Positions 9,121 through 35,643 of a stretch of DNA of 48,578 nt are shown here, piece by piece (position 1 is the stretch's first letter; every line of letters starts with the position of its first letter). The stretch is taken from NCBI GenBank assembly GCA_016933615.1, contig JAFGAO010000100.1, positions 1 through 48,578 of the forward strand. Direction: 5' to 3'. Source of the DNA: Acidobacteriota bacterium. GTDB lineage: Bacteria > Acidobacteriota > UBA6911. The position numbers were made by a program, and so were the translations under genes. The notes under the pieces were generated by a model. It was not told the DNA's origin, did no database searches, and saw only the letters and a list, made by a program, of their open reading frames with translations.

Positions 9121-9310
9121 GCCTCCATTAGGTAAAAATGACAGTAGAAATATAAGGCCGATGTATAGTCATGTCAAATCCGGATTTTGGAGACTATATC
9201 GAGCCCCGGCTTTCCCCGGGAATCCGGCCCGGCGCCCGCAAAGGCTTCGATGTGTACATTAAATCTGAAATCGGCGATAATGACGGTCCGGGAACTCCAG
9301 AACAATATTC

Positions 9311-10264
9311 ATGATTAAAATATCGGTCTTATTGTCGCGAATCTGGAGCCTTTGCCGCCGCGCCGAAAGTGCGGTTGCACTGGCGCTCAGTCTCTGCGGC
9401 AAGGCGTTCAGGGATCTTTGGGTGGACGGAGGATTCACCCAGGCCGCGGCCATCTCCTATTACCTGGTCGTTTCCATCTTCCCGATGCTGCTGCTTTTGA
9501 TCGGCGTGGCGGGCTTTTTTCTCAAACCTCAGGATATCCAGCAGGAAGTCCTGAGCTGGCTGAGCCAGTATTTCCCGACCGGCACGCGCGTGGTTTTCCG
9601 GGAGAATATCCAGTCGATCATCGAGGTGCGGGGATCGGTCAGCGTCGCGGGATTTCTGGTTCTGCTCTGGTCGTGCACCCTGTTGTTCGATGCGATCAAT
9701 CAGGCGGTGAACGCCGCCTGGGGCACGTGGGCGAACTCCCGGTTTTTCATGGATAAGTTCAAGAGCCTTCTGTTGATATGCGTCATTGTAATCGCGGCGG
9801 TGTTTTCGGCCTTTTTGACCACCCACGTGGCGCTGGAGCCGCGCCTGGAGGCCCTGATGGAGAAATACCCTTTCATGGACAGGGCTCTCTACCAGGGCAG
9901 GGAAGCGGTCGCCTCGCTGATGGGTATGTTAATCCCCTTCGTTCTCAGCGTCGGGGCTTTCGGCCTGGCCTACCGTCTTCTGCCGCGGGTGCGCATTTCA
10001 ACCCGGGATGTCTGGCCGGCGGCCGTTGTGGCGGCGCTGCTGTGGGAAATGTCCAAGCGGGGCTTTGTCTGGTACCTGACGGAGTATACGGAATACCGGC
10101 AGATTTACGGCTCGATCAGCGCCGTACTGGTCCTGATGCTCTGGGCCTATATTTCCTCGCTGATCCTTGCCTGGGGGGCGGAGCTTACCGCCGAGATCTG
10201 GAAGGAGCGCCGGAAAACCGAAGCGCAGGACAAGGCGGACTACCCCTACCCCGGCCCTATTTGA
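9311..10264 (+). CDS. YihY/BrkB family membrane protein
   Basis: A 317-residue membrane protein of the YihY family, once miscalled ribonuclease BN. About six hydrophobic helices are seen. Conserved elements are GFTQAAAISYYLVVSIFP near residue 40, LLWSCTLLFDAINQAVNAAW near 115, and YGSISAVLVLMLWAYISSLILAWGAEL near 265, all landmarks of this family. Members are inner-membrane proteins of uncertain function, with roles in envelope homeostasis or export proposed. No strong ribosome binding site is visible and it stands alone. Confidence 0.88.
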   Translation: MIKISVLLSRIWSLCRRAESAVALALSLCGKAFRDLWVDGGFTQAAAISYYLVVSIFPMLLLLIGVAGFFLKPQDIQQEVLSWLSQYFPTGTRVVFRENIQSIIEVRGSVSVAGFLVLLWSCTLLFDAINQAVNAAWGTWANSRFFMDKFKSLLLICVIVIAAVFSAFLTTHVALEPRLEALMEKYPFMDRALYQGREAVASLMGMLIPFVLSVGAFGLAYRLLPRVRISTRDVWPAAVVAALLWEMSKRGFVWYLTEYTEYRQIYGSISAVLVLMLWAYISSLILAWGAELTAEIWKERRKTEAQDKADYPYPGPI

Positions 10265-11143: not shown

Positions 11144-12355
11144 CTACGGATTCAGGCGCTGCCACTCGCTTGCGGCGCGCGCCATGCAGTCTTCGATGGC
11201 CAGGCCCATGAAGTAGTTGCCTAAAAGGGCCAGCCCCGTCTTTTCCAGATTCCGGTCGATTTCGGCCACGATGGCTGCGTGGCGGATCCTCGGAGCGGGC
11301 AGGGTCAGATTCTGCCCGGCGAGGATGTCCAGGTCGGAAGGGGAAACCTGAAGCAGGCTGCAGATGCGGCCCACTTTCTGTTCATGCCCGATGCCCGGCC
11401 GGAAATGGAACGCGAAGGCGCGCCAATCGGGATCGGGGAAGGGATCTCTCGAAACGGCCGAGAAGAAAATATCGTTTGCAGGAACGATGAAGGCGCATTC
11501 GGGCAGGCTGCATTTGCCGCGGGGAATCCGCGTCCCCAGGCTTTCCAGGGATGCGGCTTCGATGCGGCCGACCGCTTCCGACAGTTCACGATACTCATTC
11601 CGCAGAAGTGCCGCGGCCGAACGGTGATCGGCCGCAACGGCCGCTGCCGGGGCCCGGAGAGGGCCGCCCTTTTCAAGGAGAACTTCAAATCCGCCCGGAG
11701 AGGGGCGAATGCCGGCTGCCGCGCATCCCGTGCGGACTTCGATGTTCGGATTCGAGACAATCGCGTCGCAGATTGCCTGCAGGCCGCCGGGAAAACCGAA
11801 GCTTCTGGGGAATTCCTTGCGGCGCGGCCGTTTTTTGAACAGGGACCCGGGGCCTTCAGCCGGAAAGGCATCCGCGCACTGCGAGGGTACGGCGGCGAAA
11901 AACGGGGAGAGCATCCTGCGGAAATTGCGCGGGCCCAAAAACCCCGAATAATACTGCTCGAGCGTCCGGTTGCGCCTGGCGCGGAAAAAACCGATGGGGG
12001 CGTACCGAACGGCTTCAAGCCAGTCGAGGCGCAGCAGGATTTTCGGAGGCGTGAGCCAGTCGATACGGCCGCTGTCGAGCAGCCCGAAATGCACGCGCGC
12101 CGGGCCCCTCCGGACCAGCCGGCCGGCGAGGCCGGTCTGCTCGGCGATATGGAGAAGCTCGGAATAGGAGTTGTAGACGGTGTGCGCGCCCAGCTCGTAC
12201 CAGTAGCCGTCCCCGAAACGGTAGGAATAAATACAGCCGCCGATCCTGTCTCCGCGCTCCAGGACCAGAATCCTGTGCCCTGCCCGGGCGGCTTTCCATG
12301 CATAGGTCAGCCCGCTGATTCCCGAGCCGATCACAATTAAATCCGGATTTTCCAT
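11144..12355 (-). CDS. Protoporphyrinogen oxidase-like FAD amine oxidoreductase
   Basis: A 403-residue flavoprotein. The FAD-binding Rossmann motif is VIGSGISGLTYAWKAA (GxGxxG at residues 10-15), followed by E34 in LVLERGDRIGG, which holds the ribose. The C-terminal LLGNYFMGLAIEDCM is the second FAD-contact block of the HemY/amine oxidase superfamily. Known relatives include oxygen-dependent protoporphyrinogen oxidase, coproporphyrinogen oxidase and carotenoid desaturases. At about 400 residues it is somewhat shorter than HemY, and no other heme gene is nearby, so a role in heme synthesis is only one option. The stop codon lies in a REP-like repeat. Confidence 0.72.
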   Translation of the reverse strand: MENPDLIVIGSGISGLTYAWKAARAGHRILVLERGDRIGGCIYSYRFGDGYWYELGAHTVYNSYSELLHIAEQTGLAGRLVRRGPARVHFGLLDSGRIDWLTPPKILLRLDWLEAVRYAPIGFFRARRNRTLEQYYSGFLGPRNFRRMLSPFFAAVPSQCADAFPAEGPGSLFKKRPRRKEFPRSFGFPGGLQAICDAIVSNPNIEVRTGCAAAGIRPSPGGFEVLLEKGGPLRAPAAAVAADHRSAAALLRNEYRELSEAVGRIEAASLESLGTRIPRGKCSLPECAFIVPANDIFFSAVSRDPFPDPDWRAFAFHFRPGIGHEQKVGRICSLLQVSPSDLDILAGQNLTLPAPRIRHAAIVAEIDRNLEKTGLALLGNYFMGLAIEDCMARAASEWQRLNP

Positions 12356-12651: not shown

Positions 12652-12690
12652 TGTTCACATATCTAATTGAATAAATTAGTTTTATGAACA
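12652..12690. promoter_or_regulatory. Dyad operator upstream of the MarR-GNAT gene
   Basis: A 39-bp AT-rich dyad: outer arms TGTTCA and TGAACA, inner arms CTAATT and AATTAG, centre GAATA. The right-hand half site extends into TGAACACAAAA, and the same eleven bases recur at 12741-12751, just past the -10 box, so half-sites flank the promoter. This is what an autoregulatory MarR operator would look like. The surrounding sequence is far richer in A and T than the neighbouring genes. Confidence 0.6.
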
Positions 12691-12709
12691 CAAAAGCCCA
12701 TAAAAATTC

Positions 12710-12738
12710 TTGACAGGGGCAGGGAGGGGGCATAATAT
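12710..12738 (+). promoter_or_regulatory. Sigma-70-type promoter of the MarR-GNAT operon
   Basis: A perfect -35 TTGACA (12710-12715), a 17-bp G-rich spacer, and TAATAT as the -10 (12733-12738). The predicted start point near 12745 gives a leader of about 24 bases with no clear Shine-Dalgarno sequence. Confidence 0.65.
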
Positions 12739-12768
12739 TTTGAACACAAAACATTTGAATTGAAAATT

Positions 12769-13809
12769 ATGAAAACACAGAAACCGAAACAGGAAATACT
12801 GGATGACGTGCTCGTTGAATTGCGGCGCATCGTCCGCTCCATCGATCTGCATTCCAAGAAGCTGATACAGACCCATCGTTTGACCATACCCCAGGTTGTG
12901 CTTCTGCGGCAGATTCAAAGCCGGGGACGCCTGTCTCTAAGCGATTTGGCCAGACATACAAGCTTAAGTAATGCAACGGTTACGGGAATCGTGGACCGGC
13001 TCGAGGCCAGAAGCCTGGTGCGTCGGGTCCGCAGCGAAACCGACCGCCGCCAGGTTTTTGTCGAGATCCTGCCCGGCGGCGCGAGCCTGATGAAAACGAT
13101 GCCCCCGCTCCTGCAGGAAAGCTTCACCCGGAAGCTGCAGGATCTGGAAAAATGGGAGCAGGCGCAGATTCTGTCTTCACTCGGGCGGATTGCCAACCTT
13201 ATGAACGCGGATACGATGGACGCATCCCCGATCCTGGCCCATCACGCGCTGACCGCGTCCGAGGAGGATATTGCCGGCGGCGGAAATCCTTCTAAAACCA
13301 CGGGGGAATCGAAATCAGAAGCGCCCGCTTCACCGGGCCGGAGTGCACAATCGAAATATGATCCGGAAATACGGCTCCACTGCGTTTTATCCCCGGACGG
13401 ATTCCCACCGGGGTTGGATATGGAAAAGCTGGTGGATTTTCTTCATGAAAGCCTGAAGCCCTATGAAGACAACCCGAAAGACATTGCGCAGGGTATTCGC
13501 GATGCGTTCTCCGGAGCCGGGCGCGAGGGGGGATTCCTGCTGATCGCCGAACACAGGGGCAGGATTGTCGGGGCCCTCGTCATGCAGAAAACCGGCATGA
13601 AGGGCTATGTGCCGGAGAACCTTCTGCTTTTCGTTGCGGTTGCGCCCGATCAGCGGGGCAAGGGCCTGGGCCGGAAACTGGTCGAAGAGGCGGTCCATAG
13701 CGCGGATGGGAACGTCAAGCTCCACGTCGAATACGACAACCCGGCCCGCAGGCTCTACGAAAGGGTCGGTTTCACCAGCAAATACGCGGAAATGAGGTAC
13801 GTAAAATGA
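12769..13809 (+). CDS. MarR regulator fused to a GNAT acetyltransferase
   Basis: A 346-residue two-domain protein. Residues 10-150 are a MarR winged helix: QVVLLRQIQSRGRLSLSDLARHTSLSNATVTGIVDRLEARSLVRR then the wing SETDRRQVFVEI. A low-complexity linker (about 160-200) joins it to a GNAT domain (205-346) with the acetyl-CoA loop VAPDQRGKGLGRKLVEEA and the NPARRLYERVGF tail. Fusion of a regulator to an acetyltransferase suggests it senses or modifies the same small amine that its operon handles. The ATG at 12769 is preferred over an in-frame TTG three codons earlier. It overlaps the racemase gene by four bases (ATGA) and has a dyad operator upstream. Confidence 0.85.
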   Translation: MKTQKPKQEILDDVLVELRRIVRSIDLHSKKLIQTHRLTIPQVVLLRQIQSRGRLSLSDLARHTSLSNATVTGIVDRLEARSLVRRVRSETDRRQVFVEILPGGASLMKTMPPLLQESFTRKLQDLEKWEQAQILSSLGRIANLMNADTMDASPILAHHALTASEEDIAGGGNPSKTTGESKSEAPASPGRSAQSKYDPEIRLHCVLSPDGFPPGLDMEKLVDFLHESLKPYEDNPKDIAQGIRDAFSGAGREGGFLLIAEHRGRIVGALVMQKTGMKGYVPENLLLFVAVAPDQRGKGLGRKLVEEAVHSADGNVKLHVEYDNPARRLYERVGFTSKYAEMRYVK

Positions 13810-14954
13810 ACAGGGTCCTCATCAATCTGGAGGCGATTTACCAGAACCTGGAAACGATCGGCAGATGGATGCACGGTCACGGCGCCTGCTGGACGGTCGT
13901 CACCAAGGTGCTTTGCGGCCATGAAGGTGCGTTGAGGGCGCTTCAGCAGATGGGAATCCGCTCCATGGGCGACTCCCGGCTGGAGAATATCCGCTGCATC
14001 GAAAAAATCCACCCCGGGCTGGAATCCTGGTATCTCCGCGTCCCCGACCTGACATCCGTTTCCGACGTGGTCCGGCTGGCCGATGTGAGTTTGAACAGCG
14101 AAATCGACGTTATCGAAGCTTTGAATGAAGAAGCCCGCAAGCTGGACCGGATGCACGGCGTGGTGATCATGATCGAACTGGGCGACCTGCGGGAAGGCAT
14201 TCTGCCCGGGTCGTTGATAAACTTCTACAAGCACGTTTTTCATTTATCCAACATTGAAGTGAAGGGAATCGGCGCCAATCTCGGCTGCATGGCCGGAGCG
14301 GTCCCCACGGTGGATCAGTTCATGCAGCTGGTCCTCTACAAGGAACTCCTGGAGCTGAAATTCGAACATCCCCTGCATCTGATATCCGCGGGCTCTTCGG
14401 CCGTGCTTCCCCTGGTCCTGGACAGGCAGCTTCCCAGACCCATCAACCATTTTCGCATCGGCGAGGCCATTTTCCTGGGCACGGACCTTATCAACGGAGG
14501 AACCCTTCCGGAGCTGAGGGGAGACGCGATCGTTCTGGAAGCGGAAATAGCCGAGATCAAGAAAAAGAGCCTGGTCCCCCTGGCGGAAACGACATCGATC
14601 GCCCCCTTTATTTCCGAAGTCAACGAGGACTTGTCTCCGGGGCAGCGGGGATTCCGTGCCCTGATCAGCATCGGGAACCTCGACACGGAGATATCGGGGC
14701 TCGCGCCCGTCAACCCGAACTATTCGATTGCGGGCGCGAGCAGCGACATCACCGTCGTCAATATCGGGGATGAAAGGGACGGGCTGAAAGTGGGAGACAC
14801 CTTACAGTTCACCCCCAACTATGCCGCTTTTGTCAGGCTCATGAACGGAAGGTACATTGAAAAAACGCTCCGGCCCCCCGTGGACGCCCAAAGACAGAAC
14901 TGGCAGTCGGATTCTTTCGAAGTGGCCCCGGTTCTGGAACAACCGGTTCAATAA
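13806..14954 (+). CDS. Alanine/ornithine racemase-family PLP enzyme
   Basis: A 382-residue fold-type III PLP enzyme. The PLP lysine is K34 in VVTKVLCGH, near the N-terminus as usual for alanine racemase barrels. GSSAVLPLVLDRQLPRPINHFRIGEAIFLGTD (about 200-230) is characteristic of the ornithine racemase (Orr)/YhfX-like branch rather than of Alr. The C-terminal beta domain has GDERDGLKVGDTLQFTPNYAAF. By family knowledge it would interconvert L and D forms of an amino acid, perhaps ornithine or lysine. It is translationally coupled to the MarR-GNAT gene and followed by a symporter, which suggests uptake and conversion of one amino acid. Substrate unproven. Confidence 0.8.
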   Translation: MNRVLINLEAIYQNLETIGRWMHGHGACWTVVTKVLCGHEGALRALQQMGIRSMGDSRLENIRCIEKIHPGLESWYLRVPDLTSVSDVVRLADVSLNSEIDVIEALNEEARKLDRMHGVVIMIELGDLREGILPGSLINFYKHVFHLSNIEVKGIGANLGCMAGAVPTVDQFMQLVLYKELLELKFEHPLHLISAGSSAVLPLVLDRQLPRPINHFRIGEAIFLGTDLINGGTLPELRGDAIVLEAEIAEIKKKSLVPLAETTSIAPFISEVNEDLSPGQRGFRALISIGNLDTEISGLAPVNPNYSIAGASSDITVVNIGDERDGLKVGDTLQFTPNYAAFVRLMNGRYIEKTLRPPVDAQRQNWQSDSFEVAPVLEQPVQ

Positions 14955-15023
14955 ACGAAGAATGAACTATGCGCCATAATTCAAGCCGGGTCTTGCGTGG
15001 ATTTGTTCTGAGGGGGACGCGAT

Positions 15024-16862
15024 ATGACGGATGGGATGATCCTCTGGACCATTGTCGTTGCGTACATGGTCTTCATCTTCGTCAAAGGAGTTTCCAAGGC
15101 CCGAAAAATAGGGGACGCGGACGATTTCCTCGTCGCCGGCCGGAACATAGGCTGGTTCCTCCTTTTCTGCACCATGGGCGCGACGGTCATCGGCGGCGGC
15201 GCTTCGATCGGGGCCATCGGCAGGACATACGACTGGGGCGTCCTGATGCTGGTCGTCTCCACCGGATGGTACCTCCACTTCATACTATCCGGCTTGTTTG
15301 TCGCACCGAAATTCCGTGAAGCAAAGCTGTATACCGTTGCCGGTTACATGGGCCACCGCTTCGGAGAAGGCCCGCGGTTTGTAACGCTGATCCTGTCCCT
15401 CCTTTTTTCCGTGTTCATCATCGCGGCCCAGATGGCCGCTTTCGGCACCGTGCTGTCCGCCATCCTGCCCGAATTCGCCGACGCGTCCCGCGTGCTGACG
15501 CTGGCGATACTGATCGGCGGCGCCATGGTGGTCGTATACAGCACGGCCGGAGGCCTGCTGGCGGTCATTCATACCGATGTGTATCAGTTTGTAATTCTGA
15601 TTGTCGGTTTCATGATAACCCTGGCTTTCTGCGTTCCCGATATCGTCGGCTCCTACAACCGGGATACAGGCAAATTCGTACCGACGCGCTTCGGCGTTGT
15701 CGATCTGAGAAATCCTGGCGCTCTTGCGGAAAAACTCGCCTCCGGGCGGGATCCCGTTTCCGGTTATCTGAACGGGCGTTTGTCGGGGAAAACCCGGGGC
15801 CTTCTTTCCGCTTATGAAAGGGAAGGGAAAGCGACTCCGGAACTGAGCCGGGCGATGGTCGACGACCTGAACGCGATGGTGACGGGGCGGGAGAACATCT
15901 ACAACCCCGAACGCTTTGCCGGCGCCGCCCTGACGCCCCAGACAAAAGATTTGATAGAGTCGGATCCGCAGGGGCGGGACCGGTCCCGTTTGAATCTATC
16001 CCTGATCCAGGATGCCTACCCGGATGAGATTACGCGCAACCGTTTCATCCCGGGCCATTTCTTTCGACCTCAGGGCAACAGAGGTTGGCTGTTCCTGGTC
16101 ACGACGCTGATGGCGTTTCTGCTCGGGGAGACCTTCGCGCCCGGATACGCCACGCGCTATTGCGTCGGCAGGACCATCCGGCAGACCCGGATCGGCATCG
16201 CCGGGGTCGGCATTTTTCTTGCCGCGCTGTTTCCCGCGGTCCTTTTTTTCATCGCGCTCTACGCGCGCATTCATTTTCCCGACATCGAGCCGCAGCAGGC
16301 ACTGCCCATGGTGGTCACCCAGCTGCACAGCCCCGTTCTCGGGGGAGTGATCATCGGGGCCCTTGTCATGGCCGTCATGTCTTCGGCCGACTCCGCGTTG
16401 AACTCGTCCACCGCCATCTTCGTCAAGGATTTTTTCGAACATCAGCTCGGGTGGAAGGACCGGGGGGACGGGCGCACCCTGAAACTGGCGCGCGTCTGTT
16501 CCGCCGCTCTGGGGTGCGCCGCGATTGCCGTGGCGGCGATGTTTCCAGACATCATCGGCCTGCTGCTGTTCACCTACCACGTGTGGGCGCCGGCAATCAT
16601 ACTTCCGGTCTGCGTCGGAGTTTTTTCCGGGAAACGGTCTCCGGTCCTTACGCGCAATATCTTCATCACCATGGTCGCCGCGACGGGCCTTACCCTCGTG
16701 TACCGCGGCCTCCTGTTTTTTAATGCCAGGGGCTGGTGGTCGCCTCTCGGAGACGGGGCTTATGCTTTCTTCGATCAGCTGGATCCGTCCGTTTTCGGCG
16801 TGGCGGCGTCCTGCGCCGTCTTTGCCGCCCTTACGCTGTGCCGCCGAAAGGAGCCCGTTTAG
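15024..16862 (+). CDS. Sodium:solute symporter (SSS/SLC5 family) with large loop
   Basis: A 612-residue Na+-coupled transporter with about thirteen hydrophobic helices. DADDFLVAGRNIGWFLLFCTMGATVIGGGASIGA (about 31-64) and GGLLAVIHTDVYQFVIL (177-193) are SSS landmarks, and SSADSALNSSTAIFVKD is the conserved Na+-site helix. Between residues about 210 and 350 there is a long soluble, charged segment rather than the usual short loop. The ribosome binding site GAGGGGG is seven bases before the ATG. It is 69 bp after the racemase gene and likely in the same operon, so an amino acid or related organic solute is the expected cargo. Its TAG stop overlaps the convergent gene's stop. Confidence 0.88.
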   Translation: MTDGMILWTIVVAYMVFIFVKGVSKARKIGDADDFLVAGRNIGWFLLFCTMGATVIGGGASIGAIGRTYDWGVLMLVVSTGWYLHFILSGLFVAPKFREAKLYTVAGYMGHRFGEGPRFVTLILSLLFSVFIIAAQMAAFGTVLSAILPEFADASRVLTLAILIGGAMVVVYSTAGGLLAVIHTDVYQFVILIVGFMITLAFCVPDIVGSYNRDTGKFVPTRFGVVDLRNPGALAEKLASGRDPVSGYLNGRLSGKTRGLLSAYEREGKATPELSRAMVDDLNAMVTGRENIYNPERFAGAALTPQTKDLIESDPQGRDRSRLNLSLIQDAYPDEITRNRFIPGHFFRPQGNRGWLFLVTTLMAFLLGETFAPGYATRYCVGRTIRQTRIGIAGVGIFLAALFPAVLFFIALYARIHFPDIEPQQALPMVVTQLHSPVLGGVIIGALVMAVMSSADSALNSSTAIFVKDFFEHQLGWKDRGDGRTLKLARVCSAALGCAAIAVAAMFPDIIGLLLFTYHVWAPAIILPVCVGVFSGKRSPVLTRNIFITMVAATGLTLVYRGLLFFNARGWWSPLGDGAYAFFDQLDPSVFGVAASCAVFAALTLCRRKEPV

Positions 16863-17596
16863 CCCGCATCCCTTGCGGGATTGCTTAACGGGTCCGCGAA
16901 GGCGGCCGGCCGGTCTTCCGCCCTCCTGTAGAGAATCCACCGGCCCCGCTTCCCGGAAACCGCTACGGCTGCCATGAGGCGCAGGCAATAGGCCATTTTC
17001 TGCGCCAACCACAGCGGCAGGCCGATGGCCGCCGCGAGATCCTCGGTCGTGAAAAACTCCGGCAGCGACTCCGGCAGGAGCGACTGCATGTCCTGCGGAT
17101 TCCGGAAAACCCATTGATCCAAAACTTTTAAAAGCCTGCGTTCGCGGCTGCTGTAGCCCTTCCGTCCCCGTCGGCGCGGCCTGTCGCAGCGGCGCACCTG
17201 TTCCTCCTCGATCATGAGCACGTGCAGGGTGAATCCGGGATGGGCCAGGAGCCCGGCGACGCCGACCAGCTCTTCGAAGACCGATTCAATGGCGCCGCGT
17301 TTTGGGGATTTGCGCCTCGAGGGCACCTTTCGGCCGCCGCCGGGTTGCCGGACGATCCACAGGTCCCGTGCAATGGGATATACGAGCCGGACGGTATGCC
17401 GCTCAAGCAGTTTCGTCAGCTTGCGCCGGATACGGGACAGGTTTGCGGTCTGGATTTCGATCAGCAGCCCGCCCCGGACAATATCGACCGTGTATCCGTC
17501 CACGGGAACTTCGATCGAGTCGTCCGGCAGCGCCATCCACTGCTTCAGAGCGGCGTGCAGAGGCTTTTCGTTCAGGGTCCCGATTGAGTTCTGCAC
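16859..17596 (-). CDS. Conserved hypothetical protein, nuclease-like N-terminus
   Basis: A 245-residue protein of no assigned function. The N-terminal half has VDGYTVDIVRGGLLIEIQTANL (about 31-52): an Asp, then a hydrophobic strand, then E-I-Q. This spacing resembles the D...ExQ variant of PD-(D/E)xK nuclease folds. After it come basic stretches (RRKLTKLLERHTVRLVYPIARDLWIV). Residues 165-230 look like a winged helix (TTEDLAAAIGLPLWLAQKMAYCLRLM). It begins 11 bases after mqnD ends and is probably co-transcribed with it. A nucleic-acid role is inference only. Stop codons of this gene and the symporter overlap in TTAG. Confidence 0.6.
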   Translation of the reverse strand: MQNSIGTLNEKPLHAALKQWMALPDDSIEVPVDGYTVDIVRGGLLIEIQTANLSRIRRKLTKLLERHTVRLVYPIARDLWIVRQPGGGRKVPSRRKSPKRGAIESVFEELVGVAGLLAHPGFTLHVLMIEEEQVRRCDRPRRRGRKGYSSRERRLLKVLDQWVFRNPQDMQSLLPESLPEFFTTEDLAAAIGLPLWLAQKMAYCLRLMAAVAVSGKRGRWILYRRAEDRPAAFADPLSNPARDAG

Positions 17597-18499: not shown

Positions 18500-20767
18500 T
18501 TATTTGCCGGGATTGTGGCCGAATATTTCGCTCCGGAAGAATGTCACCAGGGCTTCCTTGCGGGCGCGGTCTTTTGCGTGCAGGGGGATGAGGCGTTTCG
18601 CGGGCCACTCGAGAAGCGTCATTTCATACTCCATCGTCAGCCCTTTGCCGCTGAGATACCAGGCGTACATCAGCCCGAAAAGCAGCCCAGGAGGGAGAAA
18701 CCCCCCGTCGCTGTTGATGGTTATCCGGAAGACGCGGTCGTTTCCGGGATCGGGATTCATGCGCGCCAGAGCCAGGTAGGCGCGAAGCTGCGAATCGGAG
18801 ATGTAGCATTGCAGCCCGGATTCCGGCTTGAGAGTGATCTCGTAGCAGCGCGAGCCGTTCTGTCTGATCCAGCGGCGTTTTTCAATGTACCGCCCCAGCA
18901 GGGATTCTCCGAGAGCGACCAGTATGTTCTGGCGCAGCCGGTCGGGATGGGCCAGGAGATCTTCGCGCAGCTTGATGTACCGGTCTTCGGGATCGTAGTA
19001 TCCCAGTACGTTGTCCAATTCGGTGCTGCGGTTCCATTCCCCCGTCGGAATGATGCGCACCCCCCGGAAAAACTCCAGATGCGACGGTCGCAGATCCCGG
19101 TTCTCCCAAGCCAGTTCGACCAGCAGATCCCGCAGTTCCGGGGGGCGGATGTCCTTTTTTTTCAGGAGCCACCTGATGGAATTCATGTATTCGCACAGCA
19201 GGGGGCTCCTTTGAGGCTTTGGAGGACGGTCTCCCCGGGATTTCCTCCCCGGGGTTGCTTTGCCGGGCTCCCCGGAAGGCCTCAGCCGGTATCCCTCTCT
19301 GTTCTTCAGGAATTTATCGATATACAGAAGGGTCCGCACGGCCAGAGTGAATCTCTCGGGATCGTGGTGGATCAGCTTGATGAGGTTCTCTTTCTGCGGC
19401 GCAAACAGGGTTGCCTCCACGGGCGTGAGTCGCATGGCTTCGACCCGGAAGCGGTCCAGGTGGATCGGGCTTTTGCCCTCGAGCGCGTAATTGCGCAGAA
19501 TATTCCCGGGAATTTGTTCCATGTTCGCGCTCAGGACTACGTCGAACAGGCCGGCGATCCCGCCGTGAATGTTGCGCCCGTAAGCCTCGATCAGTTCCGA
19601 AACCAGGAACCCGCGCCCCCGGTTTTTAAAGGACTTGTCGGTTTCGCCCTCCTGTATCCACGAATTGGCCGCGAGGATCTTCAGGGCCCTGGAATTGGAC
19701 CGGATAGCTTCGGCGATAGGTTCCAGCTGGAGAATCGGGATGATGCTTGAATAGAGGCTCCCCGGGGCAAGAACGATCAGGTCCGCTTTCTTTATGGCTC
19801 CGAGTACGGCGGCGCTTATGGCCGGTTTCCGTGTGAATTCCACCGTGATGCGCTCGACCGGCGAACTGCGGTCCGCCAGGGCGGATTTGCTCTGTCCGTA
19901 AACTTCCACGCCGTTGGCGTAGCGGAATTTCAGCTGCCCGGGAGTCGCCGTCGCGGGATGAATGCGCCCGACCGGCGCTCCGATAATGTCCGCAACGCGG
20001 TTGATCCCGCTCTGGATTTGGCGCAGTACCGGAGGGCGATCCGTTCTGCCCTCGGCCGCCATAAAGATGGCGGCGGTCAGAAATATATTCCCGAGGGCAT
20101 GGCCCGCCGCCGGAATCGTAGGGCCGGATCCCGCCGGGGAGACATAGGTCCCGAGTTCACTGAAGCTGTCGGCGAGCGGCTTCGGGCATGCGGATCGGAG
20201 GGCGTTCGAGACCAAAAGCAGCGGATCTCTGTAGCAGGAATAATCCGCCGTTTTTCGGGTGAAGCGGTAATTGAAAAGGTGATGAATGACGCACACCACG
20301 TTGTAGAGCCGCTCCCCGCGGATTCCGTATTTTCGCTCGAGGTTTTCATGAAGGATCGAAGACAGCAGCAGCTTCCTGAGATCCCCGATGCCCCCGATAA
20401 TGGGCAGCGTCTTCAGCAACTTTCCGGTGGACCCTCCGTCGTCTGTCGTGCAGACCACGGAATCCATCGGGTCGAACTCATGCTTCATTCCCACGCCGGA
20501 CCGGGCCGGCCAAGTCGGCAACTGGGAATTGCCCCCCACGATGGTCGACAGTCCCGTGCCGCCCCCGAGCACGACCGCCCGCGTGCCCCGGAGGTCGAAC
20601 CGGCGGATTTGTCCGGCCAGAGTTTCCGTATCCGCGGGGGCCTTTGGCGAACAGGTTCCGGTCAGAAGGAATTCAAGTAAGTGTTCGATCCCGGTTCTTG
20701 AAGCATCCGGCTGCCAGCTCGCACCCGGGCGCAAATCCCACGATGGATCCATGGCTGCAATTTCCAT
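18500..20767 (-). CDS. YvcK/CofD-family protein with N- and C-terminal extensions
   Basis: A 755-residue protein. The core (about residues 60-480) is YvcK/CofD: VVLGGGTGLST (GGGTG at 68-72), TTDDGGSTGKL (107-117), GDLRKLLLSSI, and LGNIFLTA. YvcK in Bacillus is a gluconeogenesis/cell-shape factor that binds UDP-sugars, whereas CofD transfers 2-phospholactate in F420 synthesis. The core resembles YvcK more. YvcK alone is about 320 residues; here a 55-residue lead and a C-terminal region of about 250 residues (500-755) add a domain I do not recognise, containing LLVELAWENRDLRPSHLEFFRGVRI-like sequence. The gene is upstream of mqnD on the same strand. The ATG is not preceded by a clear ribosome binding site, and a second ATG lies five codons in. 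Confidence 0.72.
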   Translation of the reverse strand: MEIAAMDPSWDLRPGASWQPDASRTGIEHLLEFLLTGTCSPKAPADTETLAGQIRRFDLRGTRAVVLGGGTGLSTIVGGNSQLPTWPARSGVGMKHEFDPMDSVVCTTDDGGSTGKLLKTLPIIGGIGDLRKLLLSSILHENLERKYGIRGERLYNVVCVIHHLFNYRFTRKTADYSCYRDPLLLVSNALRSACPKPLADSFSELGTYVSPAGSGPTIPAAGHALGNIFLTAAIFMAAEGRTDRPPVLRQIQSGINRVADIIGAPVGRIHPATATPGQLKFRYANGVEVYGQSKSALADRSSPVERITVEFTRKPAISAAVLGAIKKADLIVLAPGSLYSSIIPILQLEPIAEAIRSNSRALKILAANSWIQEGETDKSFKNRGRGFLVSELIEAYGRNIHGGIAGLFDVVLSANMEQIPGNILRNYALEGKSPIHLDRFRVEAMRLTPVEATLFAPQKENLIKLIHHDPERFTLAVRTLLYIDKFLKNREGYRLRPSGEPGKATPGRKSRGDRPPKPQRSPLLCEYMNSIRWLLKKKDIRPPELRDLLVELAWENRDLRPSHLEFFRGVRIIPTGEWNRSTELDNVLGYYDPEDRYIKLREDLLAHPDRLRQNILVALGESLLGRYIEKRRWIRQNGSRCYEITLKPESGLQCYISDSQLRAYLALARMNPDPGNDRVFRITINSDGGFLPPGLLFGLMYAWYLSGKGLTMEYEMTLLEWPAKRLIPLHAKDRARKEALVTFFRSEIFGHNPGK

Positions 20768-20893: not shown

Positions 20894-23800
20894 TTAGTTG
20901 ATTCTCCGGAACTTGGATTGAAGGATTGCAATCTTTTCCCGGAGGGAGCGCTCGGGTTCTTCCGGAGCGGGATCCTTTTTTTGAGGGGAGCCCTGTGCCC
21001 GTTCCGGTTTCCTGCCCCCCTTATTTCGGGATCCGGCGGAGTGCGATCGGGATCGTTCCGGCCTCGTGCGGTCTTTCGTGGGTGCGTCCCCGTCCGAAGG
21101 CGGCGAAGATCCGGGGGCGGCGGATGCGGCCGGATCCGCCGCGGCGTTCCCGTCCTTCTTTGCATCCTGTTGTGAACGTTTGGCTCCATGGTGTTGCTGT
21201 TTCCTGCGCTTCCTGGGAATGACCGGCAGCAGTGCCTTCATGGACAGTCCGATTCTCTTGGTTTCGGTTTCGACTGAAATGACTTTTACCTGGACTATGT
21301 CCCCCACCTTCACCGCCTCCCTGGGATCGCGGATGAAGCGGTTCGACATCTGGCTGAGATGAATCAGGCCGTCCTGTTTGACTCCGATATCGACAAAAGC
21401 CCCGAAATTTGTGACGTTGGTAACGACGCCTTCCAGCGTCATGCCCGTTTCCAGGTCGGACATACTTATTACATCGGCCCGGAATTTGGGAAGCTTGAAG
21501 CTTTTCCTCGGGTCCCGTCCCGGTTTCAGCAGCTCTTCGCGGATGTCCTTAAGCGTGGGAATCCCGGCGGCTTCCGTGGCGAAATCTTCAAGTTTGAGGG
21601 ACAGAATTTTTTCCCTGTTGCCGACGAGCTTTCCGACTTCCATTTCCAGGGCGGCGGCCATTTTCTCCACGACCGGATAGGATTCCGGATGCACGGCGGT
21701 GCCGTCCAGCACGTTTTCCCCGCCGGGAATGCGCAGAAATCCTGCGGCCTGCTCGTAGACGGCCGTATCCATGCCCACGGCGCCGGGGATGGAGGCCCGG
21801 GTCGGAAAGGCGCCTCTGCTTTTGCGATAGGCGGTGATTCTTCTGGCGATTTTATCGTTCAGGCCGGAGACGTATCGCAGCAGGGATTCCCCAGCGGTGT
21901 TGACATGGACGCCGACTCTGTTGACGCAGAACTGCACGGTGCGCAGCAGTTTCCGGTGCAGCTCCTTCTGGTCCACGTCGTGCTGGTACTGGCCGACCCC
22001 GATCAGCTTGGGGTCGATTTTCACCAGTTCCGCGAGAGGATCCTGGAGCCTGCGGGCCAGGCTGACGGCGCAGCGCGCCGAGGGAGTCCAGTCGGGGAAT
22101 TCCTCGCGGGCGATTCGCGAAGAGGAATAGATGGCGACTCCCGCGTCGTTGACGGCCGCTATGAGAATGTCCCCGAGATTGTCTTCGGTGATGATCCGCC
22201 TCAAAGCGACCTCCAGTTCCCGCGCCCGGGGCCCGGTCCCGATGGAAATCGCACGCACTTTGTGTTTGGTGATCAGGTTTTTAATTGTTTCCCGCGCTGC
22301 CTCGAATTCGTTTTCAGGGATTTTCGCCGTGTCTTCCCGGGACCCGGACTCTTCCTCCTTCGCCGGAGCGTCCAGGGGCTTGACGGGCGGATTGTCCTTG
22401 AGCACGCCGTCGTGCAGTTTCAACTCCGGACCCGGCCCGGTCTCTGTCTCCTGCGCCGGCTTCTCAGGAGGAGGCGGCGCAGGAGGCCCGGGTGCGGCGG
22501 GCGCAGCAGCCGCTTCCACGAACGCGGGGGCGGATTCTGAATTTTCGGCGGCGGCAATCGTATCTTTCTCCCGGGGGGCGGATTGGAGTTCGTCCTCCGT
22601 ATCGGCTGATTCCGATTTTTCCGCGGCGCCTGCCGCCGGAACCCCGGCGGATGGTGCGGCGGGCTCTCCTTCTGAATAAGCGGATTCGGGATCCGTCGAT
22701 TCCGCCGCGATTTCCTGCCCCGTTTCCGGCGGCGGCGGTTCCGCTTCGCCGGCGCCCGGGGAATAATCCGCCGTGCAGGGGCCGGCTTCGCCGGATTCTT
22801 TTCCCGCGGCTGTTTCCTGATTTGCATCGATGCCTGCCGGAGTCTGCTCCGGGACCGCGGGAGAGACGTCTGATAATGCCGGTCCCGCCGCAATTTCAGG
22901 CTGCGCTGTAGGTGGGGCCGGATCCGGGGCCCCGCTGTCGCCGGTTCGATCCGGTTCCGTCAACCGACCGGGGGCGGAAGCGGGTGCTTCCCGGGATTCG
23001 GGCTGGTCCGCCGGCGCCCCGCCTTTGCCTGGGGATGTGTATTTGTCCCTGCCCTGGCGTGGTTTGCGCGGGCCGGTGAAGCGGACTTTCCCTCCCTCCA
23101 GAAAGGAGCCTGTATCACTTACGACCGCAACGCTGCATTCCTCGTCCTTGCCCCAGTCCAGTCCCATGGCCGCAATCGGTCCGGCCGGCGGGGAGAGCAG
23201 CAGGTTGGCGAGGTTTTCCTGGAATATGCGTATTGCGGCGAGATCCGCGCGCTCCTTCAGCTGCGTCCGGACTTCCGTTTCAATCAGCGGTTTCAGGATT
23301 CGGGTATAGCTTTCGCGGACCGCGGCTTCAAGGACCGGGGCGAAAATAGATTCCCTGTCCCGGATGACGGAGGAGAGCAGATATTCCATTGCTTTGGTAT
23401 GATCGCCCTCTATGGACGATATGAGGATTCCTTCCTTGCAGCCCCGCCGTATCGCCAGGACCCGGTGCGACGGAATCGTCGTCACCGGTTCCCTCCTTTC
23501 ATAATACATGGCGTACTTGGTCTTCTGGTTTACCTTGGCCGGTACGACGTTGGATATTACGAATCCGTCGCGCTCCAGCATTTCGCGCAAGGCGCGGCGG
23601 TATTCGAAATTGGTTCCAATCCACTCGGCGATGATGTCCACGACGCCCTGAAGCGCCTCCTCCGGTGAGGACAGGTTCTTGGATGCCTCGACGAAGACTT
23701 TAAGGTGTTCTTCCACGCTCCATGCGTCCGGTTCCTGGTTCCAGAAATACTCCGCCAGGGGTTCCAGCCCTTTTTCCATCGCTTCCGACGAACGGGTTTT

Positions 23801-24130
23801 CTTTTTGGACCGGAAACGCTGGTGCAGATCCTCCAGTTCGACCTTCGACAGGCAGCCGTCTATCCGGCCTCGGATTTCGTCGGTCAGTTTCCCCTGCTCC
23901 GAAAGCGATTTGCGCAGCGCGGCCTTCTTTTCGCGCACCTCCCGGTAGTAGTCCAGGCGTTCCTGGACCAGGCGCACTTTCACCTCGTCCAGTCCTCCCG
24001 TCATCTCCTTGCGGTAGCGGACGATGAAAGGGCCGGTGGCGCCTTTTTCAAAAAGTTCGATCGTGGCCGAAACCGAACTTTCCGGCAGGGCGGTTTCCTT
24101 GGCTATCCTTTCTATAATTACGGCATCCAT
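20894..24130 (-). CDS. tex: Tex RNA-binding protein with about 250-residue disordered insert
   Basis: A 1078-residue Tex/YhgF-type protein (normally about 720-780 residues). The order is: N-terminal helical region beginning MDAVIIERIAKETALPESSV; a YqgF-like RNase H fold starting GLDWGKDEECSVAVVSDTG (residues about 323-342); a helix-hairpin-helix region (NTAGESLLRYVSGLNDKIARRI); and a C-terminal S1 domain (LEGVVTNVTNFGAFVDIGVKQDGLIHLSQM). Between about residues 353 and 605 a Pro/Ala/Glu-rich low-complexity segment splits the YqgF fold after its first strands; the fold resumes at ENEFEAARETIKNLI. A short basic tail follows the S1 domain. Start at 24130 fits the family; the open frame upstream (to 24340) is unlike Tex. 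Tex binds RNA and affects transcription; the role of the insert is unknown. Confidence 0.88.
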   Translation of the reverse strand: MDAVIIERIAKETALPESSVSATIELFEKGATGPFIVRYRKEMTGGLDEVKVRLVQERLDYYREVREKKAALRKSLSEQGKLTDEIRGRIDGCLSKVELEDLHQRFRSKKKTRSSEAMEKGLEPLAEYFWNQEPDAWSVEEHLKVFVEASKNLSSPEEALQGVVDIIAEWIGTNFEYRRALREMLERDGFVISNVVPAKVNQKTKYAMYYERREPVTTIPSHRVLAIRRGCKEGILISSIEGDHTKAMEYLLSSVIRDRESIFAPVLEAAVRESYTRILKPLIETEVRTQLKERADLAAIRIFQENLANLLLSPPAGPIAAMGLDWGKDEECSVAVVSDTGSFLEGGKVRFTGPRKPRQGRDKYTSPGKGGAPADQPESREAPASAPGRLTEPDRTGDSGAPDPAPPTAQPEIAAGPALSDVSPAVPEQTPAGIDANQETAAGKESGEAGPCTADYSPGAGEAEPPPPETGQEIAAESTDPESAYSEGEPAAPSAGVPAAGAAEKSESADTEDELQSAPREKDTIAAAENSESAPAFVEAAAAPAAPGPPAPPPPEKPAQETETGPGPELKLHDGVLKDNPPVKPLDAPAKEEESGSREDTAKIPENEFEAARETIKNLITKHKVRAISIGTGPRARELEVALRRIITEDNLGDILIAAVNDAGVAIYSSSRIAREEFPDWTPSARCAVSLARRLQDPLAELVKIDPKLIGVGQYQHDVDQKELHRKLLRTVQFCVNRVGVHVNTAGESLLRYVSGLNDKIARRITAYRKSRGAFPTRASIPGAVGMDTAVYEQAAGFLRIPGGENVLDGTAVHPESYPVVEKMAAALEMEVGKLVGNREKILSLKLEDFATEAAGIPTLKDIREELLKPGRDPRKSFKLPKFRADVISMSDLETGMTLEGVVTNVTNFGAFVDIGVKQDGLIHLSQMSNRFIRDPREAVKVGDIVQVKVISVETETKRIGLSMKALLPVIPRKRRKQQHHGAKRSQQDAKKDGNAAADPAASAAPGSSPPSDGDAPTKDRTRPERSRSHSAGSRNKGGRKPERAQGSPQKKDPAPEEPERSLREKIAILQSKFRRIN

Positions 24131-24300
24131 GGGCGATATTCTTACCGAGGTGGCTGATAGAATCAACCTGTAAATGCATTCCCATATCCCGGCCGGGCTC
24201 TCAATCCCGTTTAAATCCAGGGCCTCCCGCCGTGTGACCCGCTGAAGGCCATGCCGGACCGGGCAGAATTTTATGGATAGCCGCTTTTTGGCGCGAGATT

Positions 24301-25131
24301 TTAGAAAGGGAAGGGGAGCCCGACTCTGGGGATCGGCCAAACGCGCCGGCCGCCTCTGTCGGGTGCATCGTAACGCGGATTCCGGTTCGCGTCCTGGACC
24401 GTTGTGCGCGCGTCGTCCAGTTCGCCGTCGGTAAACCGGATTTCGTAGTAGGAAAACTCCAGGGGTTTCAACAGTTCCAGGTCGAATTGCGTGCCCGGTT
24501 CGATGACGAGGTCGTTCCCGCGGGTAAGCAGAACCTGAACTGCGCCGGCCGCGGCTCCGGCGGCGGTTCCGATCGCCATTCCGGTTCCGGTGTGATCTGA
24601 AACCGCACCGACGATGGTCCCGATGGAAAGGCCCGTGGCGGCCGTACTCGCAATCGTTCCGGCGTCCTCACCTTTGGAGGATCCCGTGCTCACAGACTCC
24701 GATTCGCGGTTCAGTTTTTCGTCTCCCGGGCCGTGTATGCCGCGGAAAGTCGCGACCAGGTCGCGTTTCACGCCGTTGGGAAGCAGGATATCGTCGAACC
24801 GGATCACCAGCCGGCCCTTCCCCTTGATTCTGCCCGGTCGAACGACCTCGGTCAGCGTTCCCCGTATCTCGGAGCCTTTGGGTATCGCCAGCCGCTGCTG
24901 TATCCAGATGGGGTAATTTGTCATGGCGTAAACGATATCCCCGGCCTGGCTGTTTTTGGTGTTCAGATAGGCGGTCATCACGATGGGAAGAACGGTGCCC
25001 TCGGGGACGGTGATTCCATAGTCCCTTTCCCGGGCGTTTTCCGGTTCCTGCGCGGCGGCCGGGGATGTTGCGGCGGCGAAAAATGGGAACAGTATGATTG
25101 CCGAAAACAGATGTCCTCTTTTTTTAAGCAT
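24301..25131 (-). CDS. Secreted TrbI/VirB10-like C-terminal domain protein
   Basis: A 276-residue protein with an N-terminal signal peptide (about residues 5-27, ending near AAAQ) and no lipobox. Residues 42-240 match the TrbI/VirB10 C-terminal pattern: VPEGTVLPIVMTAYLNTKNSQAGD, IPKGSEIRGTLTEVVRPGRIKGKG, a glycine/alanine-rich helical hinge (TGMAIGTAAGAAAGAV), then LTRGNDLVIEPGTQFDLELLKPL. VirB10 itself has an N-terminal cytoplasmic and membrane portion that is absent here, and no other type IV secretion gene is present. Single TrbI-like genes of this form are common in Acidobacteriota. Function unknown. GGGGAGG lies about six bases before the ATG. Confidence 0.75.
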   Translation of the reverse strand: MLKKRGHLFSAIILFPFFAAATSPAAAQEPENARERDYGITVPEGTVLPIVMTAYLNTKNSQAGDIVYAMTNYPIWIQQRLAIPKGSEIRGTLTEVVRPGRIKGKGRLVIRFDDILLPNGVKRDLVATFRGIHGPGDEKLNRESESVSTGSSKGEDAGTIASTAATGLSIGTIVGAVSDHTGTGMAIGTAAGAAAGAVQVLLTRGNDLVIEPGTQFDLELLKPLEFSYYEIRFTDGELDDARTTVQDANRNPRYDAPDRGGRRVWPIPRVGLPFPF

Positions 25132-34212: not shown

Positions 34213-35643
34213 ATGAACGATTCCAATGCAAAGGACGCCTTCAGGAGGATTCCCGCGGTCGATCAACTGCTTCTTCGGCCCGCGATCGCCTCCTGGATCG
34301 AATGCACCAGCCGCGAATTTGTCGTTTCCGAAATAAAGGCTCTGCTTGAGCGGTTGCGCGACGGAATCCGCGCAGCCTTGCCGGGCGAGGATCCGGATCT
34401 CCGGCCGGAGCACGTGGAGACCCTCCTGATCGAAAGTATCAACAAACGCCTGCGTCCCAGGCTGCACACGGTCGTCAATGCCACCGGCGTGGTTCTGCAT
34501 ACGAACCTGGGTCGCGCGCCGCTTTCAAAGCAGGCCCAGGAAAGCTTATCGGCATATTCGGCCCATTACACTAATCTGGAGTACGATATCGGCGCCGGGA
34601 AAAGATCCCATCGGGATAAGCTGATCGAACCCGTACTGCGCGAAGTCCTGGGTTGCGAGGCGGCCATGGTGGTGAACAACAACGCCGCCGCGGTTTTCAT
34701 GATTCTGAATACGCTGGCTGCCGGGAGGGAAGTCGTCGTTTCCCGGGGGGAACTGGTCGAGATCGGCGGATCCTTCCGGATCCCCGATATTATGGCGCGC
34801 AGCGGAGCGAAACTGCGGGAAGTCGGCACCACGAATAAAACCCGGACGCAGGACTATCAGGATGCCGTAGGCCCGGATACCGCAATGCTGCTCCGCGTCC
34901 ATCCCAGCAATTTCCGGATGCGCGGTTTCACCCAGAGACCCGGACTGGAGGAAATCGCCGCCGTTGCACGCAATGCGGGGCTCCCTTTGGTGGAGGACAT
35001 CGGCAGCGGCTGCCTGCAGGACCTCGCACCGTACGGCATTACGGATGAGCCTTTGGTTCACGACAGCCTCGCCGCCGGCGTAGACCTGATCTGCTTCAGT
35101 GGAGACAAGCTTCTGGGCGGACCCCAGGCCGGAATCATCGCGGGCAACCGCAAGCTGATCGATCCGATCCGGCGCAATCCGCTTATGAGAACCTACCGGG
35201 TCGACAAGCTCGTCTACGCCGCGCTGGAGGCTACGCTGGACAGCTACCGCCGCGGTAGGGCCGTTTCTGAAATCCCCGTCGTGCGCATGCTGGCCGCGAC
35301 TCCCGGCGAGATAAAAATGCGCACACGCAGATTCCTGCGCCGGCTGCGCCCCGGGCTTCCCGAAGGAATCAGGGCCGATATACAGCAAGGCTATTCCGTT
35401 GTCGGCGGAGGCTCCTGTCCCGACAGTCCCATCGAAACCGTCCTGATCGCGATCGGGGCCGAATCGCCGAGCCCCAACACGATCGAGTCTCGCCTTCGGC
35501 TGCAGGATCCCACGATCGTCGCCAGGCTGGAGGAAGACAGGGTGCTCGTCGATCTGCGCACGGTTTTCCCGTCCCAGGAGAAGATGCTGATCGAAGGCAT
35601 CATCAATGCAGTCGGCGGTCAACCGGGCCGCCGGCCGGTCTAA
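34213..35643 (+). CDS. selA: L-seryl-tRNA(Sec) selenium transferase SelA
   Basis: A 476-residue PLP enzyme that converts Ser-tRNA(Sec) to Sec-tRNA(Sec) with selenophosphate. The N-terminal tRNA-binding domain opens with RRIPAVDQLL. The core has INKRLRPRLHTVVNATGVVLHTNLGRAPL, EYDIGAGKRSHR, EAAMVVNNNAAAV, VEDIGSGCLQDL, and the PLP lysine K299 in FSGDKLLGGPQAG. The length is normal. It shows that the organism makes selenocysteine. The usual partner selB and the tRNA gene selC are not in the window. The TAA stop begins a family 2 repeat. Confidence 0.95.
   Translation: MNDSNAKDAFRRIPAVDQLLLRPAIASWIECTSREFVVSEIKALLERLRDGIRAALPGEDPDLRPEHVETLLIESINKRLRPRLHTVVNATGVVLHTNLGRAPLSKQAQESLSAYSAHYTNLEYDIGAGKRSHRDKLIEPVLREVLGCEAAMVVNNNAAAVFMILNTLAAGREVVVSRGELVEIGGSFRIPDIMARSGAKLREVGTTNKTRTQDYQDAVGPDTAMLLRVHPSNFRMRGFTQRPGLEEIAAVARNAGLPLVEDIGSGCLQDLAPYGITDEPLVHDSLAAGVDLICFSGDKLLGGPQAGIIAGNRKLIDPIRRNPLMRTYRVDKLVYAALEATLDSYRRGRAVSEIPVVRMLAATPGEIKMRTRRFLRRLRPGLPEGIRADIQQGYSVVGGGSCPDSPIETVLIAIGAESPSPNTIESRLRLQDPTIVARLEEDRVLVDLRTVFPSQEKMLIEGIINAVGGQPGRRPV

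Follow-up and report, generated by a model that had tools for sequence, protein, structure and literature searches.

The window, by which we mean the whole stretch of DNA analysed (48,578 nucleotides), carries at 12760-16862 a compact operon of three plus-strand genes, in the order MarR-GNAT fusion, racemase and symporter (Table 1), and the pairing of its acetyltransferase with its racemase recurs in at least seven phyla. The operon probably encodes an uncharacterised amino-acid pathway, perhaps one for D-amino acids. All the gene families are known, and acetyltransferase-coupled racemization of amino acids is already a known kind of system; for the GNAT-racemase unit and for the GNAT-racemase-symporter operon we found no publication in the open-access literature, in keeping with the sequence-only reading, to which no described system of this exact form was known.

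Organization of the operon

The arrangement proposed from the letters alone, a MarR-GNAT fusion overlapping a racemase by ATGA and followed by a sodium symporter, was borne out by the coordinates, the Pfam domains and the junction sequence (cgtaaaATGAac, stop-start overlap at 13806-13809). The racemase and the symporter are separated by a gap of 69 nt. In comparison with the nearest relative (L013), dN/dS values (NG86) were about 0.18 for the fusion, about 0.09 for the racemase and about 0.12 for the symporter; values of about 0.1-0.2 indicate that the three open reading frames are real genes under purifying selection. Within the fusion, constraint is looser in the linker that connects MarR to GNAT (dN/dS about 0.38 against L013). 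The convergent gene that follows overlaps the last bases of the symporter gene with its end, and had no Pfam, NCBIfam or PADLOC match.

The source is a draft genome of 298 contigs, 81.9% complete. Elsewhere in the window we noticed a Tex-like protein of 1148 aa (20894-24340) with a low-complexity Pro/Glu/Ala-rich insertion of about 220 residues adjoining its YqgF-like domain, a CofD/YvcK-like protein (18500-20767) with a C-terminal extension of about 250 residues, and selenocysteine synthase SelA (34213-35643). Since SelA is present, TGA may encode selenocysteine in some proteins of this genome.

Table 1. Coordinates of the operon, its predicted control elements and its flanking genes in the window
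Feature	Position	Strand	Remarks
Flavin amine-oxidoreductase, flanking gene	11144-12355	opposite to operon	
Diverged second operator-like copy, TTATGAACACAAAA	12682-12695	none	one mismatch to palindrome
Predicted sigma-70-type promoter	12710-12738	+	TTGACA 12710-12715, 17-nt spacer, TAATAT 12733-12738
Likely MarR autoregulatory operator, TTTTGAACACAAAA	12738-12751	none	palindrome over -10 end and likely transcription start
MarR-GNAT fusion	12760-13809	+	349 aa; TTG start, in-frame ATG at 12769
Orr-like fold-III PLP racemase	13806-14954	+	382 aa; PF01168
SSS-family sodium:solute symporter	15024-16862	+	612 aa; PF00474
Family-less flanking gene	16859-17596	opposite to operon	convergent

Promoter and operator

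The predicted promoter is strong by sequence, matching 10 of 12 consensus positions. As the palindrome overlaps the promoter end, binding of a MarR dimer would occlude the promoter, and the palindrome is likely to be the autoregulatory operator of the MarR part. The palindrome and its one-mismatch copy were the sole matches in 48.6 kb, where 0.02 were expected. The copy belongs to an imperfect inverted repeat (12652-12690; arms 12652-12668 and 12674-12690) and is not conserved in L013; the stretch closer to the MarR coding sequence shows conservation in L013 and partial conservation in L002, L004 and L034. An exact or one-mismatch palindrome is located 22 nt before the start codon in the window and in all four of these relatives. 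A related GTACWC core, which extends to MarR-led operons of other phyla, was found in the 80 nt upstream of 10 of 18 MarR-led operons (0.86 expected; the window, whose variant is GAACAC, is not among the 10), in comparison to 0 of 15 operons without MarR. By sequence reading, there is no convincing Shine-Dalgarno sequence ahead of either the TTG or the ATG, which makes a short or leaderless 5ʹ end likely, and no structured RNA or riboswitch scored above the gathering thresholds in the operon leader.

The MarR-GNAT fusion protein

The MarR domain (PF01047) occupies residues 41-99 with 60.5 bits against a cut-off of 24.6, and the GNAT domain (PF13508/PF00583) residues 247-341 with 53.3 bits against a Pfam cut-off of 27. 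The acetyl-CoA loop R299-x-x-G302-x-G304 and Y333 are well kept among 23 homologues, with R299, G304 and Y333 invariant and G302 present in more than 90%. The structure model showed two domains joined by a low-confidence linker (residues 142-195), and the matches listed in the fold search were solely MarR-family structures. For the GNAT there was no close solved relative showing a substrate, hence a protein or peptide target is possible.

MarR is fused to GNAT in the window and in L002, L004, L013, L034 and L082, that is, only in the window's genus and in one Zixibacteria genome. In twelve other loci MarR has a gene of its own, immediately upstream and in the same direction, which brings the fused or same-strand adjacent cases to 18, and in three the MarR gene is divergent; L003, of the same genus as the window, has the GNAT without any MarR. 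The simplest reading is that two neighbouring genes have become joined and that the fused state is derived, because MarR stands separate and adjacent in other loci, and the conservation of the operator in MarR-led operons supports this.

The racemase

The best and only NCBIfam model matched by the racemase was that of ornithine racemase (Orr, NF040742), with a full-length alignment (protein residues 3-354 to model positions 3-350 of 351) and a score of 279.5 bits, below the curated cut-off of 480; racemase homologues of the GNAT-partnered clade score 250-336 bits. The PLP lysine K34, in the motif TKVLCG, is kept in 22 of 23 aligned homologues. The AlphaFold model (pLDDT 81.9, pTM 0.83) had its best PDB fold matches in alanine/serine racemases and D-threonine aldolase, which confirms fold III for the modelled protein and leaves the substrate unfixed. 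No solved relatives were found by sequence.

In one homologue (L024:2647-4607) the PLP lysine is replaced by Gln (WSVSTQALCG); this gene has no GNAT and is directly followed by an alanine-racemase gene, so that its product is possibly a non-catalytic partner subunit. The Orr-like racemases of L144, L145 and L152, in which the lysine is kept, also directly precede an Alr gene. In L008 (8001-9167) the racemase is broken by a stop or frameshift next to an intact GNAT, which could be explained by an assembly error or by decay.

The symporter

Around residues 210-340 the symporter has an insert at least about 100 residues long that is absent from half of the aligned homologues. Its nearest solved relatives are of the CHT/SGLT type, including a prokaryotic-type CHT homologue and human CHT1. 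In CHT1 the choline cage is formed by aromatic residues, among them W62 and W141 (PMC11589582). The aligned positions are Val and Ile in the window's symporter family, which makes choline an unlikely substrate, and choline transport, as suggested by the closest structures, was rejected.

GNAT-racemase pairing across genomes

Relatives were collected by a scan of one genome per species, which yielded 23 racemase loci, and further loci came from phylum-wide searches. By record name or placement, the 23 loci belong to Acidobacteriota, Zixiibacteriota, Calditrichota, Verrucomicrobiota (including Opitutales), Armatimonadota, Myxococcota ("Deltaproteobacteria") and Fibrobacterota. In nearly all loci the GNAT is directly upstream of the racemase, and 36 of 41 readable junctions show the 4-base overlap; of the remaining five, three share 8-11 bases (L021, L087, L142) and two have no overlap (L088, L135). 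The symporter is downstream of the pair in 26 loci; several genomes with the pair lack it, therefore uptake is not always part of the system. The expectation that the three genes co-occur elsewhere was thus confirmed, with the qualification that the conserved core is smaller than the three-gene system first proposed: it consists of a dedicated GNAT and a single clade of Orr-like racemases.

Of the 132 Zixibacteria-phylum genomes, 13 had a racemase of this clade (E below 1e-180), and the operon-type GNAT occurred in exactly those 13. The nominal probability of this co-occurrence, 3e-18, assumes independent genomes and is overstated because related genomes are not independent; the case for a dedicated pairing does not depend on this figure. 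In one genome (G194) the racemase and the GNAT are on separate contigs, the GNAT locus being MarR-GNAT-symporter-alanine racemase-transaminase. Sequence distances of the racemase correlate with those of the GNAT (r 0.45) and of the symporter (r 0.56), and none of 2000 permutations gave values as high.

The racemase was found in 6 of 10 genomes of the window's genus and in none of five other family members searched. The flanking genes are shared by the window and L013; in L002, L003, L004 and L034 the alignment covers the operon only. This pattern of flanks is consistent with an operon that may have moved as a cassette.

Sister racemases and their DUF1611 partners

Sister Orr-like racemases, with about 35% identity, are paired with DUF1611 proteins encoded directly upstream by mostly overlapping genes. 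The best NCBIfam model for these partners, below its cut-off, was DgcN (D-glutamate N-acetyltransferase), whose gene is described as key to a pathway that racemizes acidic D-amino acids and their amides irreversibly (PMC12363236). In the tree, the GNAT-partnered racemases formed one clade (100/100) and the DUF1611-partnered racemases another (98/90). The DUF1611 gene is absent from the window operon and was met solely beside the sister clade.

Several members of this family are fused to other domains. An M15/VanY-type D-Ala-D-Ala peptidase is joined to an Orr-like racemase in L085 (5421-7199), L146 (5672-7411) and L147 (5903-7642), each time with a DUF1611 gene directly before it. Sister-clade Orr-like racemases are fused to an arginase-family domain in L148 (7273-9267) and L150 (5556-7427), where no acetyltransferase partner was detected; the fusions suggest a possible conversion of arginine through ornithine to D-ornithine in one polypeptide. 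Both systems occur on one contig in L146 (5672-8481 and 11714-17244), as DUF1611 with the racemase-M15 peptidase fusion and as a MarR-GNAT-symporter-M20-Alr locus. An internal deletion has shortened the racemase of the latter locus to 136 aa, leaving its start and C-terminal part, and the GNAT and symporter are retained.

Accessory genes in relatives

The operon was first described as self-contained, which applies to the window, but operons of relatives often hold additional genes. Seven loci have an M20 amidohydrolase/deacylase (above the TIGR01891 cut-off where tested), eight an alanine racemase (likewise above that of TIGR00492 where tested) and five a class III transaminase closest to ArgD/LysJ of the acetylornithine type, all of them in Zixibacteria/Calditrichota-type genomes. 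Seven other operons (L002 at 9147-10250, L015, L017, L019, L022, L023 and L087) encode a methyltransferase of an uncharacterised family with the invariant motifs GHPDVTAYE and NYEST, for which a profile search returned no solved relative. In combination, M20, ArgD-like transaminase and GNAT bring to mind the way arginine is synthesized through acetylated ornithine. By this analogy the set favours a diamino acid as the possible substrate, though each of the families is broad.

Proposed function and alternative explanations

We give about even chances to the reading in which the operon is an autoregulated module for the uptake, racemization and N-acetylation of one amino acid. The proposal from the letters alone, in which the regulator would sense that compound too, was supported in part: the genes co-occur elsewhere, and the racemase keeps the PLP lysine and an alanine-racemase fold. 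The MarR part would repress its own promoter through TTTTGWACWCAAAA until released by an effector, which is probably the amino acid taken up or a compound derived from it such as its acetyl form. The symporter would bring the amino acid in together with Na+, the Orr-like PLP racemase would interconvert its enantiomers, and the GNAT would N-acetylate one of them with acetyl-CoA, which, by analogy with DgcN, could pull the reversible racemization and make it effectively irreversible. Because a PLP racemase needs a free alpha-amine, it should act before alpha-acetylation, or on a form acetylated at the side chain. In relatives, the M20 deacylase, the second racemase and the acetylornithine-type transaminase may continue the route. 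We infer a single substrate common to both enzymes, the order of the steps, the inducer and the direction; that the two reactions share one compound is argued most strongly by the presence of two unrelated acetyltransferase families beside one racemase family. It is also possible, and we put it forward tentatively, that the dedicated GNAT and the new PLP racemase clade form a widespread two-enzyme racemize-then-acetylate core, paralleled independently by the DUF1611-racemase pairs, which spread as a mobile operon with a MarR switch and a Na+ symporter through many uncultured phyla.

As to the amino acid, ornithine or lysine had been suggested from the sequence alone. Orr is the best model and a basic amino acid is plausible, but the Orr cut-off was missed. 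The ArgD-type transaminase in five relatives and the arginase fusions of two distant members keep a basic amino acid plausible, while by analogy the DgcN-like partners of the sister clade would point elsewhere. A diamino acid such as ornithine or lysine is somewhat favoured, with small or acidic D-amino acids also being candidates. The D-lysine/D-ornithine aminomutase family uses the product of Orr. PF09043, the alpha barrel of D-lysine 5,6-aminomutase, which we used as a proxy for OraE as well, had no match in the window's genome, as far as its completeness of 81.9% allows, and was absent in 31 of the 33 genomes examined; clostridial ornithine/lysine fermentation was provisionally set aside for the window's genome on this basis. 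It is quite improbable that the operon supplies an ornithine pathway through a genuine ornithine racemase and that the GNAT acetylates ornithine in the manner of ArgA: the score is well under the Orr cut-off and PF09043 was missing within the limits just given, even though Orr is the sole NCBIfam model matched, the ArgD/LysJ-like transaminase adjoins in the five relatives and the arginase domain is fused to two sister-clade racemases.

The MarR and GNAT genes are of kinds common in inducible detoxification, and the patchy distribution and the differing flanks within the genus suggest horizontal movement. However, the transporter belongs to a family of Na+-coupled uptake and not efflux, and the racemase and symporter had no match to defence models, hence we find it very doubtful that the operon acetylates a toxic (D-)amino acid or analogue to render it harmless and uses the racemase as a second outlet. 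A defence or CRISPR role was rejected, the only matches being weak winged-helix ones to the HTH parts of CARF-type models. An unlikely alternative, though less so, is that the racemase and GNAT make an acetylated (D-)amino acid, e.g. N-acetylated ornithine or lysine, as a compatible solute, which the Na+ symporter recovers, with the MarR part responding to stress. For osmoadaptation there is a precedent among MarR-type regulators in P. aeruginosa PA3458 (PMC8070244), a halophile is known to use N-acetyl-alpha-lysine as a solute (PMC4685198), and a Na+/H+ exchanger is encoded upstream in L078, with an equal layout in L081. One isolate name reads "Old_saline" and other names resemble sediment or spring bins, but isolate names are weak evidence of habitat, and the deacylase and transaminase in several operons look catabolic.

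If the uptake, racemization and N-acetylation module is real, it would represent a way of processing an amino acid, possibly the D-amino acids of dead biomass, that recurs in uncultured phyla, and an Orr-like racemase would have been coupled twice in nature to N-acetyltransferases of unrelated families. The annotations "ornithine racemase" and "GNAT family N-acetyltransferase" would then be corrected. The substrate could be found directly, with two small soluble enzymes and one panel of amino acids.

Comparison with known systems

With the SSS symporters (PF00474) the window symporter shares the family fold and a profile match across most of the core. The racemase has in common with Orr of the clostridial D-ornithine pathway (NF040742) the full-length match and the PLP lysine, whereas its clade has motifs of its own (SAGS, NHFRIGEAxFLGTDL and GQRGYRA) and a dedicated GNAT partner. 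The known bifunctional MarR-GNAT regulators show the same order of domains, MarR and then GNAT; the fusion in the window differs from them in joining two genes that are neighbours but unfused in homologous operons. With D-glutamate use by DgcN/DgcA (PMC12363236) the operon shares the logic of an N-acetyltransferase plus a racemase. However, its acetyltransferase is a GNAT, unrelated to DUF1611, and its racemase is a PLP enzyme, with which an alpha-N-acetyl amino acid can form no aldimine.
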